From positions 1,937,501 through 2,001,500 of the forward strand of contig NC_014501.1 in the NCBI RefSeq assembly GCF_000147335.1: DNA of 64,000 bases, read 5' to 3'. The translations under genes were made by a program, and so were the position numbers. This document shows, in pieces, positions 10,720 to 40,902 of the stretch. How positions within the stretch are numbered: the first letter of the stretch is position 1; every line of letters starts with the position of its first letter. The DNA is from Gloeothece verrucosa PCC 7822. Lineage in GTDB: Bacteria > Cyanobacteriota > Cyanobacteriia > Cyanobacteriales > Microcystaceae. The notes beneath the pieces are model-generated. The model was not told where the DNA came from and did no database searches. It saw nothing but the letters and a program-made list of their open reading frames with translations.

Positions 10720-12894
10720 ATGCGATTTCTTAACAAGCTGAGTATTCAATCCAAACTATTACTCATGCTACTGCTAATCAGCATCGCCTTAATTTTCATT
10801 ACAGGCTACATGGATTACAGTAGTGGCAAAACGGCATTTACCAAAACCATCTTTAACCAACTCGTTATCCTACGAAGCGTCAGAGCCAAAGAAATTGAAT
10901 CCTACTTTCAATTTAGCAAAAATCAGATTCTCACCGTCAGCGAATCCCCATCAGCCATTGAAGCAATGAAAACCTTCAAGGCAGCCTACCAAAAATTAGA
11001 AACTCAAACCTTAAACCCCAACCAGCAACAACAGTTAGAGAAATACTACCAAAATGTTTTTATTCCCGAACTCGGGCACAATGTAGTAGATGGAACACCC
11101 ATTGCAGAAACCTACTTACCTCAAACGAGTGTCGCCCAATATCTCCAATACCACTACCTAGCGAAAAATCGCTCTAAACAGAGACAAAATGATTTAGAAA
11201 ATCCTGGAGATGGCAGCGAATATAGTAAAGTTCATCAAAAATACCACCCTTTATTTAGAAATTTACAAAAAAGATTTAAATATAACGATATTTATTTAAT
11301 CGACGTTGATAGCGGCAACATTGTCTACTCCGCAGAAAAACAAGTAGACTTTGCAACTAATATAGGGTTAGGTCCTTACGAAAATACCAACCTAGCCAAA
11401 GCCATCTTATCGATTGAAAAATCGAGAGACCACAGTTTAATCATCATCAAAGACTTTGAACCCTACCGTCCCTCCTATAATAAACCCTCGGCTTTTATCG
11501 CCACCACAATTTTTGATGGGACAGAATTTATCGGTGCTTTGGTGTTTCAACTCCCCATCGAGAAAATCAATGGAATTATGACCTCATCTGGACAGTGGGA
11601 ACAAACCGGACTCGGCCAAACCGGCGAAACCTATTTAGTCGGTCCAGATAACTTGTTACGTTCCCTTCCCCGCCAGTTTGTCGAAAATCCCAACCAATAT
11701 TACCAAGCTCTCGAAAAAAACGGTCTTGATAATAACACCATTGAACGGATACGCCGCTTAAACACACCCATTTTAGTTCAAAAGATAGAATCGAGCGCTT
11801 TAGAACAGGCCATCACCGGTAAGAAAGGAACAGCCATCTATCAAGACTACCGAGGCATTCCCGTACTAGCCGCCTATCAACCCATTCAGGTAGGAGATTT
11901 TAACTGGGGATTAATTGCCCAAATGAGTGCGGATGAAGCCTTTGCTCCCATTAATGAGTTTACCCGTCAATTATTAGTGACTTCTGCTATTCTCGTAGTC
12001 TTTTTCACGCCGCTTTCTAACTGGTTGGCGCGGCTGTTTGTGCGTCCCATTAAGCAGCTTAGGGCAGGAGCTTGTCGCATCGGATCAGGAGAAACCGATG
12101 TTAAGCTAAACATTCAATCAAAAGATGAATTTGGCGAATTAGCAGTAGCTTTTAATTATATGAGCGAGAACTTACATCAAAGAGAGCTACTGATTCAGCA
12201 AATGAAGCAAGAAAACGAAAACCTCTTGCTCAATATTTTGCCAGACCTGATCGCCAAACGCTATAAAAAAGGAGAACAAGCGATTGCCGATACTTTTCCC
12301 AATGTTACTGTTTTATATGCAGAAATAGAGGGTTTTAATGAACTATCTGCTGAATTGCCCCCTGAACAAACTATTAGGTTACTCAATGAAATTGTCAGTG
12401 CTTTTGATGAAGCGGCAGAAGCTTATGGCGTTGAGAAAATGAGAACCATCGGCAATTTATACGTGGCGGTTTGTGGGTTGTCAGTTGCTCGCGTCGATCA
12501 TGTTAAAAGGACGGTAGATTTTGCCTTAGACTTACTCAAATTAATCACCCGTTTTAATCAGCAACAGGGAACAAAATTGAGTTTAGATATTGGTATTCAT
12601 TGCGGTCCGGTAGTGGGGGGAATTGTAGGAAAAACTCGATTTATTTACGCCTTAACCGGAGAAACCATGAGAATTGCCTACGCGATTCATTCCTCACCTC
12701 GGCAAAATGTCATTCAAGTGACCCACAAGGTTTATGAGAGTGTAAAAGATCTTTACCCATTTGAACAGATTGGAGAAGTAGAAATTCCTAAAGCCGGAGT
12801 CATCCCAATTTGGTCGATGAAAATAGGGGGAATTAAATCATCGATTAATGTTAACTCTTCTTTAAACGGAGCAAGCGTCGGCATAATTGATTAA
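10720..12894 (+). CDS. Membrane receptor with degenerate class III cyclase domain
   Basis: A 724-residue protein with a membrane segment at residues 13-30, a large extracytoplasmic sensor (about 35-415, Cache-like, ending FNWGLIAQMSADEAFAPI), and a second membrane segment at 417-435. A HAMP domain (about 440-495) and a C-terminal class III nucleotide cyclase fold (about 525-705) follow. Catalytic positions are altered. The first metal Asp is Glu535 (YAEIEGF), the second is Asn579 (RTIGNLY), and the transition-state Asn and Arg of the usual TVNxAxR motif read Arg651 and Ala655 (GETMRIAYA). I infer little or no cyclase activity, with the domain perhaps acting as a sensor or regulator. The MscS/CNBD channel gene starts 45 bases later, suggesting one operon. 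Confidence 0.85.
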   Translation: MRFLNKLSIQSKLLLMLLLISIALIFITGYMDYSSGKTAFTKTIFNQLVILRSVRAKEIESYFQFSKNQILTVSESPSAIEAMKTFKAAYQKLETQTLNPNQQQQLEKYYQNVFIPELGHNVVDGTPIAETYLPQTSVAQYLQYHYLAKNRSKQRQNDLENPGDGSEYSKVHQKYHPLFRNLQKRFKYNDIYLIDVDSGNIVYSAEKQVDFATNIGLGPYENTNLAKAILSIEKSRDHSLIIIKDFEPYRPSYNKPSAFIATTIFDGTEFIGALVFQLPIEKINGIMTSSGQWEQTGLGQTGETYLVGPDNLLRSLPRQFVENPNQYYQALEKNGLDNNTIERIRRLNTPILVQKIESSALEQAITGKKGTAIYQDYRGIPVLAAYQPIQVGDFNWGLIAQMSADEAFAPINEFTRQLLVTSAILVVFFTPLSNWLARLFVRPIKQLRAGACRIGSGETDVKLNIQSKDEFGELAVAFNYMSENLHQRELLIQQMKQENENLLLNILPDLIAKRYKKGEQAIADTFPNVTVLYAEIEGFNELSAELPPEQTIRLLNEIVSAFDEAAEAYGVEKMRTIGNLYVAVCGLSVARVDHVKRTVDFALDLLKLITRFNQQQGTKLSLDIGIHCGPVVGGIVGKTRFIYALTGETMRIAYAIHSSPRQNVIQVTHKVYESVKDLYPFEQIGEVEIPKAGVIPIWSMKIGGIKSSINVNSSLNGASVGIID

Positions 12895-12939
12895 ACCCCC
12901 TTTTTCATTTCCCTATTCCCAACTGTCAATTAATTTTCT

Positions 12940-14397
12940 ATGACCGACTTTATCATCAAGCAAAATTGGTTTGTATGGACATGGGTATTAATTTTAGGGT
13001 TTCCTATGCTAATGCTGTTGCTTAATGAATTCGTAGTACAGCTAGAAAGGCAACAAAAACCCCTCGTCACGCCTGTCCGTATCCTGCGAAATTTGGTAGT
13101 GCCAACCCTGGCTATTTTTTTGCTTTTGGTTAAGGTCTTACAGCTTGCTGAAGAGGCTATATTAGTTCGCTTAATCGAGACTGTTCTTTGGATTTTTATT
13201 ATTTATGCGGTACTCACTTTAATTAATATCTTACTGTTTGAGCAAGCCAGGCCGGAAAGCTGGCAATCTCAAGTCCCCAAATTATTTCTTGATCTCAGTC
13301 GATTTTTCTTGATCTTGGTAGGAACAGCGCTAGTGTTATCAAGTGTCTGGAAAACAGATTTAGGGGCTTTATTGACCGCCTTGGGCGTGGGATCATTGGT
13401 GATTGGTTTAGCCTTGCAAGACAGCTTAGGCAATATTTTTTCGGGAATTGCTTTGCTTTTTGAGCGCCCCATCAGAAGCGGCGACTGGGTAGAGATTGGG
13501 GATAAAGTGGGCAAAGTGATAGAAGTTACTTGGCGCTCAGTACATTTGCAAACTTGGAACCGAGATCTGCTGGTTATCCCCAATTCCGAACTCGCTAAGA
13601 GTAATTTTAGAAACCTCAGTCGACCAACGGGTCTTCATGTGGAAACTTTTGAGGTAGGCTTTTCTTATGATGACCCTCCCAATCGAGTTAAACAAATTCT
13701 TAAAACTACGGCACGGGAAACTCAAGGGGTATTAAGTGATCCAGAACCTTTTGTCCAAACCACAGGCTATAAAGACTTCTATATCAATTATAAAGTTGGT
13801 CTATTTATTGATGACTACGGACAATCTCGTAAAATTTTAGATGAGTTTATCACCCGTATTTGGTATGCGGCTAAACGTCATCATCTGACGATTCCCTACC
13901 CAATTCAAAACCAATATGAATATCAAGGTGTTGCACCTATCCCAGAAGATCGAGTTCTTCGAATCACAGAAATTTTACGCTCTATTCCGAGTTTAAGTAT
14001 GATCGATCCCCTGCTTCTGGATCAGTTAAATGACAACATCACCACTCAAAAATATGGTAAAGGAGAAATTGTCATTGCTCAGGAGCAGCGTTTGCTAGGA
14101 CTGTATATTATTCTCCAGGGTCGTGTACAGTTATGGGTCCGTGATCGTACCGGTAACACACAGCCGGTTTTAGAACTATCTGAGGGCGATTTTTTTGGGG
14201 TACAAGCATCCTTGTTATCTGATCATCAAAGCGATGTTTCTGTGGAGGCCCTTGAGGACCTAGAAGTTCTCATTTTGGATACAGAAACTCTACAATTGCT
14301 CTTATTGCGATCCCCTCGCTTTGCGCTTGAATTGGGCGAGTTGATGGAATCACGCCGCAAGTTGGTGCAAGCGGCTAAAAGTAGCCTTTTTCAGTGA
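12940..14397 (+). CDS. MscS-family channel with C-terminal cyclic-nucleotide-binding-like domain
   Basis: A 485-residue protein of the bacterial cyclic-nucleotide-gated (bCNG) subgroup of MscS channels. Four or so membrane helices cover residues 10-165. The last carries the Gly/Ala pattern of the MscS pore helix (LGALLTALGVGSLVIGLALQ), followed by the ALQDSLGNIFSG segment and the beta domain (GDWVEIGDKVGKV). A CNBD-like fold fills about residues 350-480. In its phosphate-binding cassette (FFGVQASLL, residues 418-426) the usual Glu after FG and the later Arg before SATV are not present, so binding of cAMP is doubtful. It is 45 bases downstream of the degenerate cyclase gene. The TGA stop is also the first three bases of a repeat element. 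Confidence 0.88.
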   Translation: MTDFIIKQNWFVWTWVLILGFPMLMLLLNEFVVQLERQQKPLVTPVRILRNLVVPTLAIFLLLVKVLQLAEEAILVRLIETVLWIFIIYAVLTLINILLFEQARPESWQSQVPKLFLDLSRFFLILVGTALVLSSVWKTDLGALLTALGVGSLVIGLALQDSLGNIFSGIALLFERPIRSGDWVEIGDKVGKVIEVTWRSVHLQTWNRDLLVIPNSELAKSNFRNLSRPTGLHVETFEVGFSYDDPPNRVKQILKTTARETQGVLSDPEPFVQTTGYKDFYINYKVGLFIDDYGQSRKILDEFITRIWYAAKRHHLTIPYPIQNQYEYQGVAPIPEDRVLRITEILRSIPSLSMIDPLLLDQLNDNITTQKYGKGEIVIAQEQRLLGLYIILQGRVQLWVRDRTGNTQPVLELSEGDFFGVQASLLSDHQSDVSVEALEDLEVLILDTETLQLLLLRSPRFALELGELMESRRKLVQAAKSSLFQ

Positions 14398-14769
14398 CAT
14401 CCTCCCACGCACTCCGTAAACTCCCTGCGGGGCTTCCCTAACTCACGATAGGGCATTCCTGGTTATTCCCTTACGGGGTTTCGCCACTTATCTAAAACTC
14501 GTTGGTACAAGCGATGATGACATCTCCCACCGTTGGTTTCCCGACAGAACGACTCGCTCAGGCGTTTTCGTTTTCCAGAGTCCCTGGATACTTGAGGCAG
14601 TGCGGTCTTGACGGTTACCGTCGAGAGTAACTGCCGTGTCGATTTATTCGATTTTTGTCGTATTTCCCAAGCTCTGGAGGTTCCGCCTAATGACTACCTT
14701 TCACTCTCATCTTGGATGGGTACATCCCAAATTTGGCTCAATTCAGGTTCTTACCTTGCGGCCAATTTT

Positions 14770-14798
14770 AGTATATAGGTACTTGGCTACGCTGTCAA
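14770..14798 (-). promoter_or_regulatory. Near-consensus sigma-70 promoter inside element A
   Basis: On the minus strand, TTGACA, a 17-base spacer, then TATACT. Element C has an equivalent site with TATGAT. It points into the conserved body of the element and toward its 14394 end, so it could make an antisense or guide-type RNA ending against the MscS gene. Confidence 0.6.
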
Positions 14799-14937
14799 CC
14801 ACTGACTCGCTTTCATGAGGACGCGCATCTGCGGTCGCACGGCAGATGATCTGCTCACGTAGTGGCGCGGAGCGCATCGTCCGTCCCTCGAACTCCACTA
14901 CGTTTCGTTCGGGGATTTCCCACTCGGAACTGTTAAA

Positions 14938-14960
14938 AAACCCTGCATCCTAGCAGGGCT
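14938..14960. terminator. Hairpin at the far end of element A
   Basis: CCCTGC-ATCCTA-GCAGGG. On the minus strand it is followed by six T, a good intrinsic terminator that would insulate the internal promoter from read-through. Element C has a hairpin of different sequence but equal position (CCGCC ... GGCGG, then ATTTTT). Confidence 0.6.
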
Positions 14961-15036
14961 TTAATTTTAAGCAAGAGGAGACTCAATCCGTTCACTCAGA
15001 GGTCAACAAGAGAAACTTTGTGAGTCAGTCAGCTAA

Positions 15037-15165
15037 ATTAGTATACGTTGTCGCCACCTTGATGACTTCATCCATCCGGGTGAGAGAGTTTTAGCAAGTC
15101 GGGAACTTATTGCGGTTACTCTCAATCGGTTTATGGAGGATTTATCTGTATTGTTAAGGAGCTAG
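15037..15165 (+). pseudogene. Possible 3' fragment of a lost gene
   Basis: One frame between 15037 and the TAG at 15163 reads like real protein: DDFIHPGERVLASRELIAV, then a helix ending SVLLRS. It has no start codon with a ribosome-binding site and is preceded by an in-frame TAA. It could be the decayed C-terminal end of a gene disrupted when element A arrived. The family is not recognised and the call is tentative. Confidence 0.3.
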
Positions 15166-15372
15166 TCGTTACTGATGTAGCTTCTTATCTCTGTTTCTAT
15201 TGTTAGAATATTAAATCTGACGGGGGATGTCAGTCCCATAATTAAGGGAATTTTTGGCCAAGGAAAGGCTAAAATTTGCTGTTTAAGTAGAAAAATGTAG
15301 AATATTACTTTGAACAACTCAAACTCATTGCTATCGAAATACATCTCTACACATAAAGTTACTGACAAGTAT

Positions 15373-15402
15373 TTCATCTGCGTTCATCTGCGTTTATCTG
15401 CG
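15373..15402. repeat. Three tandem 10-mers covering the end of the kinase gene
   Basis: On the minus strand CGCAGATAAA is followed by two copies of CGCAGATGAA. This unit is a common dispersed spacer repeat in cyanobacteria. Here it encodes the last residues (ADERR) and the stop of the kinase gene, suggesting the original C terminus was replaced or extended by the repeat. Confidence 0.65.
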
Positions 15403-17731
15403 GACAATTATGCAAGAGGTCTATTTTATTAACCTTTTCAACGGGAACAAAATCATATTCGCCGCTAGAACAGGGATTAGAAATCAGAGTCACTAATTGG
15501 ACTGTATTCTCTTGGCGATCACCTTTAATAAAGCTAATTTCTGGGGCGGTCACTCCCTTAGCTTTAAAATTAGGATCAATTAAAGTTTGTTGTAATTGAA
15601 GCCGCTTTTGTTTAGGGTTAAATATCATCATTAAAGATTCCATCCAATTAGGAGAAGGTATTTTATTTAAAGCTTGAGCTAGAGTTATAGTGGCATCATA
15701 GGCCATTGCTGTTCGCCAACTGACTGTTCCTTTCCATTCTTTTTCGGCTTCTTTAGTAAAATCTGGATCGCTACTGGTTAAAGGATGCCAAGGAATAGCA
15801 ATCACTATCCCTTGGGCAAATTTTCGTTGATTTCTAGTAGCCGGGTTAAACAAAGTATCAGACCCAATGATGGGCAGTTTATTATCATTAGCTCTCATTA
15901 AGTCTAAAGCATTGTTAAACGAAAAATCATTAACTCGTCCATCAGGAATTAAAAATAAAGCTTGACTTCCTTGTGTACGCACTTCCTTTATAGCTTGATA
16001 AGCATCAAAATTTTCATTTTTTAAATTATCAAAAACTTGAATACTTCTGCCGGCAAAACTCTTCTCAAAATTATTTTTATAAGACCGACTAAAACTACTA
16101 TCTGGATTATAAAAAACAGCAATTTTTTGAATGTCTTTTTGAATTAAAAATTTAGCAACTTTCTCAGCTTTATTTTGATCGGGTGATACGGTACGGAAAA
16201 AGAAGCGGCTACTATCGGTTAAATCTTCTGATGTGCTAGTGGGGGAAATTAACACTAATTGATGCTGGTCATAAACTGAAACCGATGCTTTAGTTACGTC
16301 GCTGGCGTAGCTTCCTATAACTCCTAAAATATTAGGTACTTTACCTAAAGTATTGGCAATAGTAATAGCTCTTGCGGGTTTATTATCATCATCAGTAATT
16401 ACCACCTGTAACCCATAACCTTTAATAATATTATTCTCATTAATATATTTTTGGGCTTGGGCTACCCCTCTAAGAATTTCTAGTCCGGCATCTGAGCCAT
16501 TATTTCTATCTTTTAAAGGTAAAGAAACAGCAATGCTATAAACCGGAGTTTTATTGAGAATTAATTGGACATTATTTAAATAAATAAGCGTTTCTGGGTC
16601 TCGGGGCTGTTCTTTTCTAGCGTTTTCAAAAAAATCTAATGCCTGTATATAGTTTCCTTTTTCGTAAGCTTCAACGCCGTTTTCCTTAGCGGAAGAGGGA
16701 CTATCATCATTAATGATAACTCCAGCGCAACTGATAAAATCGGATTCTTGAACCGGACAAAAACTTGATTTCTGAGTTGACCATACCAGCCAACCCCCTA
16801 ACACTATAACTCCTAACCCTACACTTAAGGCGACTTTGAGTTTCCAATAGTTAGGAGGATCTGGAGGTAAAGGGGGAGGAGGAGGAATTACAACAGGCTT
16901 ATCCTGTCTAGATAATACACGTAAAGCCTCTAAAACGTCTTGAACTGAACGGTAGCGCTCTTGACAATGATAAGCGGTCATTTTATCGATAATATCTGCT
17001 AAATCTTCCCTTACTTGAGCCTTATTGCGCCAAATAAAATGACGATGAGCCGCATCTAGCTCCCATTGCTCCTGAGTGGGGTTGCTTTTAATCAAAACTT
17101 GTATGGCGATAACTCCCACTGCATAAATATCACTACATAATTGAGGATATCCCATAAACTGCTCTGCTGGTGCATAGCCGGGAGTTCCTAGTGCTAGAGT
17201 TCGAGTGATTTGATTGCTGTTTCTTCTAACTGTAGCCGCGCCAAAATCAATTAAAACAATTTTATTATCACTACTGCGTCGGATTAAATTGGAGGGTTTA
17301 ATATCCCGATGAATCACTCCCTGTTGATGAATATATTGAAGAATGGAGAGGAGATCTTCTAGAAAATTAATAACCGTTTGCTCATAGCAAGGATTGGTTA
17401 ATTCTTCGTTAAGACAATGACCTTGAATATATTCTTGAACCAGATAATATATTCCGTTTTCTTCAAAGTAAGCAAAGATTTGGGGAATTTGGCTGTGTTC
17501 AGTTCCCAGTTGTTCAAGAAGTTTGGCTTCTCGCTGAAACAGTTCTCTAGCTTCTAGGGTAGCATCTGGATCTGTGAGTTGCTTAAGGACTCTTTCTTGA
17601 TTAAGACAATCTAAATCTTCTACTAAATAAGTTATGCCAAATCCCCCTTTTCCCAAAAAGCGAAGGACTTGGTAACGATTGCGGATAATGTCTCCTGGAT
17701 TTAAAGGCATTTTCGTCGGTAACTGAACCAT
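15374..17731 (-). CDS. Ser/Thr protein kinase fused to an extracytoplasmic LivK-like ligand-binding domain
   Basis: A 785-residue receptor kinase of reversed layout. Residues 20-275 are a complete Hanks-type kinase: Gly loop LGKGGFGITY, Lys50, HRDIKPSN with Asp143, and DFG with Asp162. A Pro-rich linker precedes one membrane helix (about 298-318, SVGLGVIVLGGWLVW). A short TPR-like segment (ENGVEAYEKGNYIQALDFF) leads to a periplasmic-binding fold (about 395-745) of the branched-chain amino-acid receptor type, with SPTSTSEDLTD and FRTVSPDQ motifs. I infer a cytoplasmic kinase controlled by an outside ligand. The final residues come from a dispersed repeat. No transporter genes are adjacent. The DUF2207 and pseudokinase genes lie just beyond. 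Confidence 0.88.
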   Translation of the reverse strand: MVQLPTKMPLNPGDIIRNRYQVLRFLGKGGFGITYLVEDLDCLNQERVLKQLTDPDATLEARELFQREAKLLEQLGTEHSQIPQIFAYFEENGIYYLVQEYIQGHCLNEELTNPCYEQTVINFLEDLLSILQYIHQQGVIHRDIKPSNLIRRSSDNKIVLIDFGAATVRRNSNQITRTLALGTPGYAPAEQFMGYPQLCSDIYAVGVIAIQVLIKSNPTQEQWELDAAHRHFIWRNKAQVREDLADIIDKMTAYHCQERYRSVQDVLEALRVLSRQDKPVVIPPPPPLPPDPPNYWKLKVALSVGLGVIVLGGWLVWSTQKSSFCPVQESDFISCAGVIINDDSPSSAKENGVEAYEKGNYIQALDFFENARKEQPRDPETLIYLNNVQLILNKTPVYSIAVSLPLKDRNNGSDAGLEILRGVAQAQKYINENNIIKGYGLQVVITDDDNKPARAITIANTLGKVPNILGVIGSYASDVTKASVSVYDQHQLVLISPTSTSEDLTDSSRFFFRTVSPDQNKAEKVAKFLIQKDIQKIAVFYNPDSSFSRSYKNNFEKSFAGRSIQVFDNLKNENFDAYQAIKEVRTQGSQALFLIPDGRVNDFSFNNALDLMRANDNKLPIIGSDTLFNPATRNQRKFAQGIVIAIPWHPLTSSDPDFTKEAEKEWKGTVSWRTAMAYDATITLAQALNKIPSPNWMESLMMIFNPKQKRLQLQQTLIDPNFKAKGVTAPEISFIKGDRQENTVQLVTLISNPCSSGEYDFVPVEKVNKIDLLHNCPQINADERR

Positions 17732-39900: not shown

Positions 39901-40902
39901 GTGGAGAAACACGAATCTACTCCCCACTTACTGTTTTCCTCCGAAAAGGGTAAACGTTATTTCTATCTCAGCAGCGATAACCCTAATACCCTAAAAAGTT
40001 GCTGGACGGTTGGTCGAGGACACGAAAATGATTTAGTCCTTAGAGATCAATGGATTTCTCGGAATCACGCGATCTTACAAACCACAGAAACCGGAGAGTT
40101 TTACTTAATCGATTTGGGAAGCCGCAATGGAACCTTTGTCAATGGACGCAGAGTAGGTATTCCTGTCACCTTACATAATGGTGATCAGATTACATTTGGA
40201 AAAACCGAAGTACAGTATTATTGTCCGTCTGAAGAAGCTTCTGTAGGAGGTAAATTCGGCAATTTAGATTTTGTTACCCTCACCGCTACCCTACATGAAC
40301 GGCAATTAACCTCGGTGGTCGTCGTGGATATGAGAAACTTTACCGTCTTAACACGACAGCTAGATGAAACCATTCTTTCCACTCTAATTGGCAGTTGGTT
40401 TAGAGAAGCGGGCGAGATTATTCGTGAAGCCGGCAGTTGGGTTGATAAATACATTGGGGATGCCATAATGGCCATCTGGTTTCACGGTTCTAAAGAAGTT
40501 AACCGCAGTGATATTCTCAAGATTTTCCAAGCCGTCAGTAAGTTGAATAAAATGACTCAAAAATTAAGTCGTGAATATCCTGTCCCCTTTGAACTACGTA
40601 TTGGCGCAGGGATTAATACCGGCTATGCGATGGTGGGCAATACGGGCAGTGGAGATCACCCGGATTATACAGCCATTGGAGATACCGTTAATGCTGCCTT
40701 TCGCTTAGAATCAGCCACCAAAGAAATTGGGGCAGATGTAGCCATCGGAGAGAAAACCTATAGCTATTTAGGTGATATAGAAGACGCACAGCAACACTTT
40801 CATGAAAATACAGTCCACCTCAAAGGCTATGATACTCCCACCATCACCTATGGAACCACCTTTGAAGAGTTAGATTGTTTCTTAGAAGAAACTAACCCTT
40901 AA
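39901..40902 (+). CDS. FHA domain-adenylate cyclase
   Basis: A 333-residue cytoplasmic protein that starts with GTG. An N-terminal FHA phosphothreonine-binding domain (about 25-110, TVGRGHENDLVL, RNHAIL, DLGSRNGTFVNG) is joined to a class III cyclase domain (about 135-320). Catalytic residues are intact: metal-binding Asp143 (VVDMRNFT) and Asp187 (KYIGDAIM), and Asn264/Arg268 (DTVNAAFRLE). It should therefore make cAMP, controlled by binding to a phosphoprotein, likely a target of a Ser/Thr kinase. This contrasts with the degenerate cyclase at 10720. Its upstream region is occupied by element D. Confidence 0.92.
   Translation: MEKHESTPHLLFSSEKGKRYFYLSSDNPNTLKSCWTVGRGHENDLVLRDQWISRNHAILQTTETGEFYLIDLGSRNGTFVNGRRVGIPVTLHNGDQITFGKTEVQYYCPSEEASVGGKFGNLDFVTLTATLHERQLTSVVVVDMRNFTVLTRQLDETILSTLIGSWFREAGEIIREAGSWVDKYIGDAIMAIWFHGSKEVNRSDILKIFQAVSKLNKMTQKLSREYPVPFELRIGAGINTGYAMVGNTGSGDHPDYTAIGDTVNAAFRLESATKEIGADVAIGEKTYSYLGDIEDAQQHFHENTVHLKGYDTPTITYGTTFEELDCFLEETNP

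Follow-up and report, generated by a model that had tools for sequence, protein, structure and literature searches.

This locus raises the question of what passes between a receptor and a channel that both look like parts of cyclic AMP (cAMP) signalling and both lack key residues of it. Within a stretch of 64,000 nucleotides from Gloeothece verrucosa PCC 7822 (hereafter the window), part of a 6.1-Mb contig in a genome of 7.84 Mb and seven contigs, a gene for a receptor with a cyclase-like output domain (P0001) is followed by a gene for an MscS-type channel with a C-terminal cyclic nucleotide-binding domain (CNBD; P0002). The original prediction, made from the letters of the sequence, was of a degenerate pair 45 bases apart, and the open reading frames (ORFs), the Pfam domains and the residue alignments agree with it: both ORFs are intact, of full length and free of stops, and they lie on the same strand with 45 bp between them. 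Our answer, to which we give about even chances, is that the two genes represent a conserved receptor-channel module built from cAMP-signalling parts, in which the cyclase fold would act as a coupling domain and the channel would be controlled by protein contact.

All Pfam matches of P0001 and P0002 were above the curated cut-offs. In the AlphaFold model of P0001 (mean predicted local distance difference test score, pLDDT, of 85.4) the class III cyclase fold is present: the cyclase domain superimposed on CyaB (3r5g) with a Z score of 26.1 and a root-mean-square deviation (rmsd) of 1.8 over 182 aligned residues, and on 5o5k with a Z score of 25.8 and an rmsd of 3.6 over 215 residues. The fold-defining columns are mostly retained (G586, Y581, D563, G629 and G647). 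For the six catalytic positions we used the roles given for Rv1625c in PMC4174876; D, K, D, D, N and R of 5o5k are matched by E, R, N, A, R and A in P0001, so that six of six residues are changed. Judged from this alignment, the domain would have no usable active site, and since both half-sites are missing, it presumably could not complete one even in a heterodimer. The HAMP domain sits after the second membrane helix, a helix judged by eye from the sequence and the model. No Pfam family was matched by the sensor region of P0001 at E 0.01, dCache_1 included, and dCache_1 was matched in 44 of the 46 members of our receptor alignment A2. The pair had also been proposed to sense envelope stress; this finds no support, since the matches in relatives point to an input domain of the dCache type and the histidine-kinase model matches in P0001 fall around the HAMP region.

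On the channel side, the CNBD in the AlphaFold model of P0002 (mean pLDDT 85.5) superimposed on CNB-B of PKG II (5bv6) with a Z score of 20.5 and an rmsd of 2.1 over 148 residues. Its phosphate-binding cassette reads GDFFGVQASLLSDHQSDVSVEA, and the canonical Glu and Arg are both absent: the Glu position holds V or Q, depending on the placement of a one-residue insertion, and the Arg position holds S431. The alignment thus confirmed the earlier description of a cassette without the two residues that grip the phosphate.

We then asked how widely the pair occurs. Among 291 genomes of the order Cyanobacteriales, searched for the channel and the receptor at a threshold of E<=1e-60, the channel was found in 64, a receptor match in 67 and both in 63. 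The four receptor-only genomes were rejected as counter-examples, as in three the match runs up to a contig edge on the side expected to hold the channel, and the fourth holds a dCache-HAMP-MCP chemoreceptor (L311:2794-5238) that has only the sensor and HAMP in common with the receptor family. Two sets of loci were examined, after channel ORFs lacking either domain had been dropped. The order set comprised 80 loci (every listed channel match from genomes other than that of the window, plus two receptor contigs) and gave 75 two-domain channel rows including the window; the receptor lay directly upstream on the same strand in 63 (gap -60 to 600 bp), 0.6-13 kb upstream in 6, two of which are second tandem channels, and divergently in 1, while 3 rows were cut by contig ends and 2 had none. 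The named-genome set, for which a scan of named contigs confirmed at least 582 stretches and the 80 best were kept, gave 78 two-domain rows with 61 pairs, 11 unpaired and 6 contig-cut; most of its named records are cyanobacterial. Three rows (L237, L241 and L263) were reassigned by hand from no receptor to pair, because a long ORF call, extended to its first start, ran into the receptor gene. Close same-strand adjacency was seen in 124 of 153 channel rows from several phyla, with some contigs counted twice because they are present in both sets (e.g. L072 and L202). In the 121 rows first called pairs the gap ran from -58 to 432 bp with a median of 30; since each ORF was taken from its first start codon, some of the small overlaps may be exaggerated. 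Outside the cyanobacteria, pairs were found in five phyla by record titles: Planctomycetota, Bacteroidota (Saprospiraceae), Poribacteria and Verrucomicrobia, mostly as metagenome-assembled genomes (MAGs), and Actinomycetota, in the complete genome of Frondihabitans sucicola. As the pair and its domain order were found in dozens of genomes, they are not a chance pattern. A pairing seen only here can be rejected, and the sensor-channel unit first suggested from this one sequence holds up, its adjacency recurring across the order and in five other phyla.

Across 91 receptors (L199 was excluded for a gap at a catalytic column), all six catalytic residues were present in 7, both metal-binding Asp residues in 27 and none in 13, P0001 among the last. 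The receptor tree required 8-13 changes per catalytic residue. When the 171 columns were ranked by conservation, the six catalytic ones stood at 73, 74, 100, 125, 127 and 159, four of them below the domain median, with several glycines and core residues being nearly invariant. Ordinary cyclases of the order kept the six residues in 28 of 28 cases, a control biased toward canonical sites since it was composed of top-scoring PF00211 matches. The ratio of non-synonymous to synonymous substitution rates (dN/dS) was estimated by the Nei-Gojobori method among relatives of the window pair, some comparisons sharing a member. For the cyclase region it was 0.07-0.29 in eight comparisons between receptors with an incomplete set (a ninth was dS-saturated), 0.10-0.17 in three full-site comparisons and 0.17 in one pair lacking only the Arg; in HNxxYS receptors the region compared seems to include part of an added C-terminal domain. 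In the close pairs compared, dN/dS was well below 1 in both proteins. Low dN/dS together with many residue losses indicates that the fold has been kept by selection and the chemistry often has not. These values also bear on the idea that the window pair is simply a decaying relic. P0001 is among the 13 receptors without any catalytic residue, it carries a Thr at a conserved Trp, and P0002 has lost the cassette Glu; however, both ORFs are of full length without stops, most fold-defining columns are kept, and dN/dS is low in relatives that are just as poor in canonical residues, which leaves this explanation hardly credible.

A regularity was also found in the cassette of the channel. After removal of near copies (>=88% identity), 159 channel rows were reduced to 117, and the cassette Arg was present in 0 of the 93 receptor-linked channels among them. 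The other 24 rows have the Arg in 17 (8 stand-alone channels and 9 nearer relatives without this receptor), and nearer relatives outside the paired clade kept it in 9 of 10. The seven unlinked rows without Arg are four contig-cut ones, L068, L144 and L266; the genomes of L068 and L144 carry a receptor elsewhere. In the stand-alone MscS-CNBD family, represented by its best-scoring 30 loci with 1.5-kb flanks, both Glu and Arg were present in 31 of 31 ORFs, including L181, the one locus of the 30 in which a cyclase-like ORF (25% identity) lies directly upstream of a channel that keeps both. A maximum-likelihood channel tree, computed by a quick search without bootstrap and with the cassette columns and the fused-ORF copies L094 and L219 left out, placed all receptor-linked rows in one group of 99 rows with a Shimodaira-Hasegawa-like approximate likelihood ratio test (SH-aLRT) value of 99. 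A single change on this tree explained the presence or absence of Arg, and it falls at the root of the paired clade or immediately before it. In its place, Ser was found in 81 of the 93 receptor-linked channels, and this column ranked 9th of the 142 CNBD columns in conservation, above the Glu position, which ranked 26th. Conservation of the Ser suggests a constrained replacement rather than free decay.

Two further explanations meet their evidence here. The channel could be gated by tension like any MscS, its CNBD being vestigial and the receptor a separate protein co-located by descent. Its MscS core is intact, and three channels of the paired clade (L068, L144 and L215) have no receptor in the fetched flank; against this stand the close same-strand adjacency described above, the place of the cassette Ser among the most conserved CNBD columns and the low dN/dS of both proteins in the close pairs compared, and we regard this explanation as very improbable. 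Alternatively, a cyclic nucleotide might still be the link, made by receptors with residual sites and bound weakly by the Arg-less CNBD, with another cyclase supplying it in this organism. The 7 full-site receptors and the 27 with both metal Asps would fit, as would the two further cyclase-domain proteins that the window genome encodes besides P0001, one of them inside the window. P0001, however, lacks all six catalytic residues, four of the six catalytic columns fall below the conservation median, and even the partners of full-site receptors lack the Arg, which all 31 stand-alone ORFs examined keep. This makes a persisting cyclic-nucleotide link improbable.

The original prediction further held that both halves had drifted from cAMP chemistry together. 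This stood in part: both have moved away from that chemistry, but the Arg was lost in one shared change and the catalytic residues in many. The cassette Glu, which changed 12 times on the tree, allowed correlated loss to be tested. A Glu-bearing channel lies beside 24 of 27 receptors with both metal Asps, versus 46 of 64 receptors without both; of 11 independent pairs differing in Glu, a mean of 2 changed the same way, 0 the opposite way and 9 showed no difference. In this tree-aware comparison the association of Glu loss with metal-Asp loss was not significant. Full-site receptors also adjoin Arg-less channels, and three of the seven (L131, L133 and L224) lie beside Glu-less ones.

The main rival is that the CNBD is still gated by a ligand, one that has no cyclic phosphate or is held differently, and that the receptor supplies this ligand or modulates its effect. 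The cassette Glu kept in 72 of the 93 paired channels and the Ser at the Arg position would suit such a pocket, and an Arg-less, nucleoside-responsive CNBD exists: in the trypanosomatid PKA regulatory subunit, according to PMC10959531, the cassette Arg is traded for a polar residue. That protein is a kinase subunit, whereas ours is an ion channel, and according to the same paper it carries a Glu at the PKA-Ala202 position, two residues past the conserved Glu. This extra Glu is absent from both P0002 and the family consensus (FFGEMAL), so that the trypanosomatid nucleoside-CNBD signature was rejected for our family in spite of the replaced Arg. P0002 has moreover lost the conserved cassette Glu. 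Apart from the pair itself and antisense ORFs (recognized by coordinates), every gene family was confined to 20 or fewer of the 121 loci, so that no obvious gene for making a ligand accompanies the pair. We consider gating by another ligand rather unlikely.

We therefore return to control of the channel by protein contact. The dCache-HAMP receptor would read an extracytoplasmic ligand, as its domains suggest, and the signal would be coupled through HAMP to the pseudo-cyclase output domain. A dimer of this domain may then dock on the CNBDs or on the cage of the channel and bias MscS opening, the channel having kept its pore and CNBD fold while, by the tree, the cassette Arg was replaced mostly by a conserved Ser. 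This reading is supported by the pairing, by the absence of Arg in 93 of 93 channels, by the constraint on Ser, by repeated catalytic loss, by purifying selection and by added globins (see below). Several observations weigh against it. Gating by contact is something we infer. Loss of the Arg was one event, so its match with the pairing has no independent replicate, and L266, an Eisenbacteria MAG, has neither the Arg nor a receptor in its flank; as it sits in an unresolved fork just outside the paired clade, the Arg may have gone before the pairing arose. The Glu retained in most paired channels would suit a ligand-binding pocket, and its loss was not significantly associated with that of the metal Asps. 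The 7 full-site receptors, all within one clade, leave some pairs that may still make cyclic nucleotide, and for two catalytic columns conservation is slightly above the median of the domain. P0001 also has private changes, such as the Thr at residue 646 in place of the family-conserved Trp. As a broader proposal, which we put forward tentatively and at somewhat less than even chances, such pairs would be widespread receptor-operated channels, in which ligand, dCache, HAMP and pseudo-cyclase gate MscS through an Arg-to-Ser CNBD without a second messenger, and to which later inputs were added: in one part of the tree downstream PstS-like binding proteins and C-terminal globins, elsewhere several receptors in tandem.

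Such additions were seen in the loci collected. A gene for a PstS-like lipoprotein is present in 16 of the 121 loci, all in one part of the tree, and all four of those tested matched PBP_like_2. In 15 of these loci the gene begins no more than ~110 bp from the channel end on the same strand, three of the 15 being contigs fetched twice. It lies directly downstream of the channel in L115, L117, L118, L122, L123, L127, L138, L139, L141, L145, L147 and L275, and is likely a third component in this part of the tree. Degenerate receptors from the same part carry a C-terminal globin in 5 of 5 tested (L137, L138, L139, L143 and L147), these having been chosen after prior matches. In L115, L117 and L118 a same-strand gene that by eye reads as a glutaminase precedes the receptor. 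Three tandem receptors precede one channel in L112 and L113, and tandem channels occur in L125 and L126. L094, identical to L219, holds a 906-aa ORF on a 5.6-kb MAG contig, with sensor-HAMP fused to MscS-CNBD and no cyclase domain, a fusion that may be an assembly error. A related ARRANGEMENTS was found at four loci of Planctomycetota (L238, L242, L252 and L253), where another cyclase gene lies ~1.2-1.6 kb upstream of a related, Arg-bearing MscS-CNBD channel. These loci resemble the module in having a cyclase gene upstream of the channel and differ from it in their full DKDTNR site, their cassette Arg and, in the tested L242 and L253, a CHASE2 sensor; they look like cAMP-competent cousins of the module.

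The features of the pair are collected in the table below. Promoter-like matches around the spacer between P0001 and P0002 were not above those in shuffled sequence. Downstream of P0002 follows a non-coding stretch (14398-15373) without an Rfam match at the gathering threshold, and then, on the minus strand (15374-17731), a gene for a 785-aa protein whose translation reads as a Ser/Thr kinase with a periplasmic-binding-protein-like domain. The second cyclase-domain protein of the window (39901-40902, plus strand, 333 aa) has a PF00211 match and an N-terminal part that is FHA-like by eye; its catalytic K, D, T, N and R were taken from the alignment, and its first Asp was read by eye.

Table. 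Positions of the receptor and channel genes and of their domains and key residues in the window
Feature	Positions	Strand	Evidence
P0001 (724 aa), receptor: dCache-type sensor, HAMP, degenerate class III cyclase domain	10720..12894	+	Pfam, AlphaFold, dCache_1 of relatives
Predicted periplasmic dCache-like sensor region, residues ~35-410 (approximate limits)	10822..11949	+	AlphaFold secondary structure; dCache_1 of relatives; membrane helices by eye
HAMP, residues 435-487	12022..12180	+	PF00672, E 6.4e-15
Pseudo-cyclase domain (Guanylate_cyc), residues 525-690	12292..12789	+	PF00211, E 6.2e-39; fold match to 3r5g and 5o5k
E535, first metal-Asp position	12322..12324	+	Alignment to 5o5k
R575, base-Lys position; N579, second metal-Asp position	12442..12456	+	Alignment to 5o5k
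A644, base-Asp position; R651 and A655, transition-state Asn and Arg positions	12649..12684	+	Alignment to 5o5k
Intergenic spacer, 45 bp	12895..12939	+	
P0002 (485 aa), channel of the MscS type ending in a CNBD	12940..14397	+	Pfam, Foldseek, AlphaFold
MscS core (TM2/3, beta and C-terminal cage domains), residues 119-317	13294..13890	+	PF21088, PF00924, PF21082; Foldseek to MscS
CNBD fold, residues ~340-482	13957..14385	+	PF00027 (cNMP_binding, 370-455); 5bv6, Z 20.5
Phosphate-binding cassette with changed residues (416-437); V421/Q422 in place of Glu, S431 in place of Arg	14185..14250	+	

If contact gating is correct, bacteria have made a receptor-gated channel by retiring the messenger from a cyclase-CNBD pair, pseudo-cyclases gain a testable role, and receptors from full-site to fully dead form a natural series beside the same kind of channel. 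The labels 'adenylate cyclase' and 'cyclic nucleotide-gated channel' would then probably be wrong for many such genes. No description of this receptor-channel pair was found among the papers listed by our literature searches, which included a review of cyanobacterial second messengers (PMC4284465) in its passages on channels.

Compared with known systems, the receptor is closest to the Rv1625c/5o5k-type class III adenylate cyclases, with which it shares the fold (34% identity to 5o5k over the P0001 domain); the receptor family differs from them in its dCache-HAMP input and in catalytic loss, complete in P0001 and affecting at least one residue in 84 of 91 receptors. Pycsar systems combine a cyclase with a CNBD effector, and adjacent genes for a cyclase fold and a CNBD are common to them and to our pair, which differs by its transmembrane receptor and dead site. 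Membership in Pycsar was rejected, as the PADLOC profile matches were weak (PycC, E 1.2e-4; PycTIR, E 4.7e-5) and the catalytic residues are absent. In CNB-homology domains of the EAG/hERG type, the pocket is occupied by an intrinsic ligand formed by a C-terminal segment. Bacterial cyclic nucleotide-gated (bCNG) channels, reportedly the subject of work by Caldwell in 2010 and Malcolm in 2012, are said to be members of the MscS superfamily with a CNBD. P0002 has this architecture of an MscS pore with a C-terminal CNBD and is a channel of the bCNG kind by that measure, its cassette being without the canonical Glu and Arg; the window genome also encodes one stand-alone MscS-CNBD protein with a canonical cassette (L153). 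The receptor-linked channels differ from the bCNG channels in forming a clade of their own, in lacking the cassette Arg and in having a fixed partner receptor.

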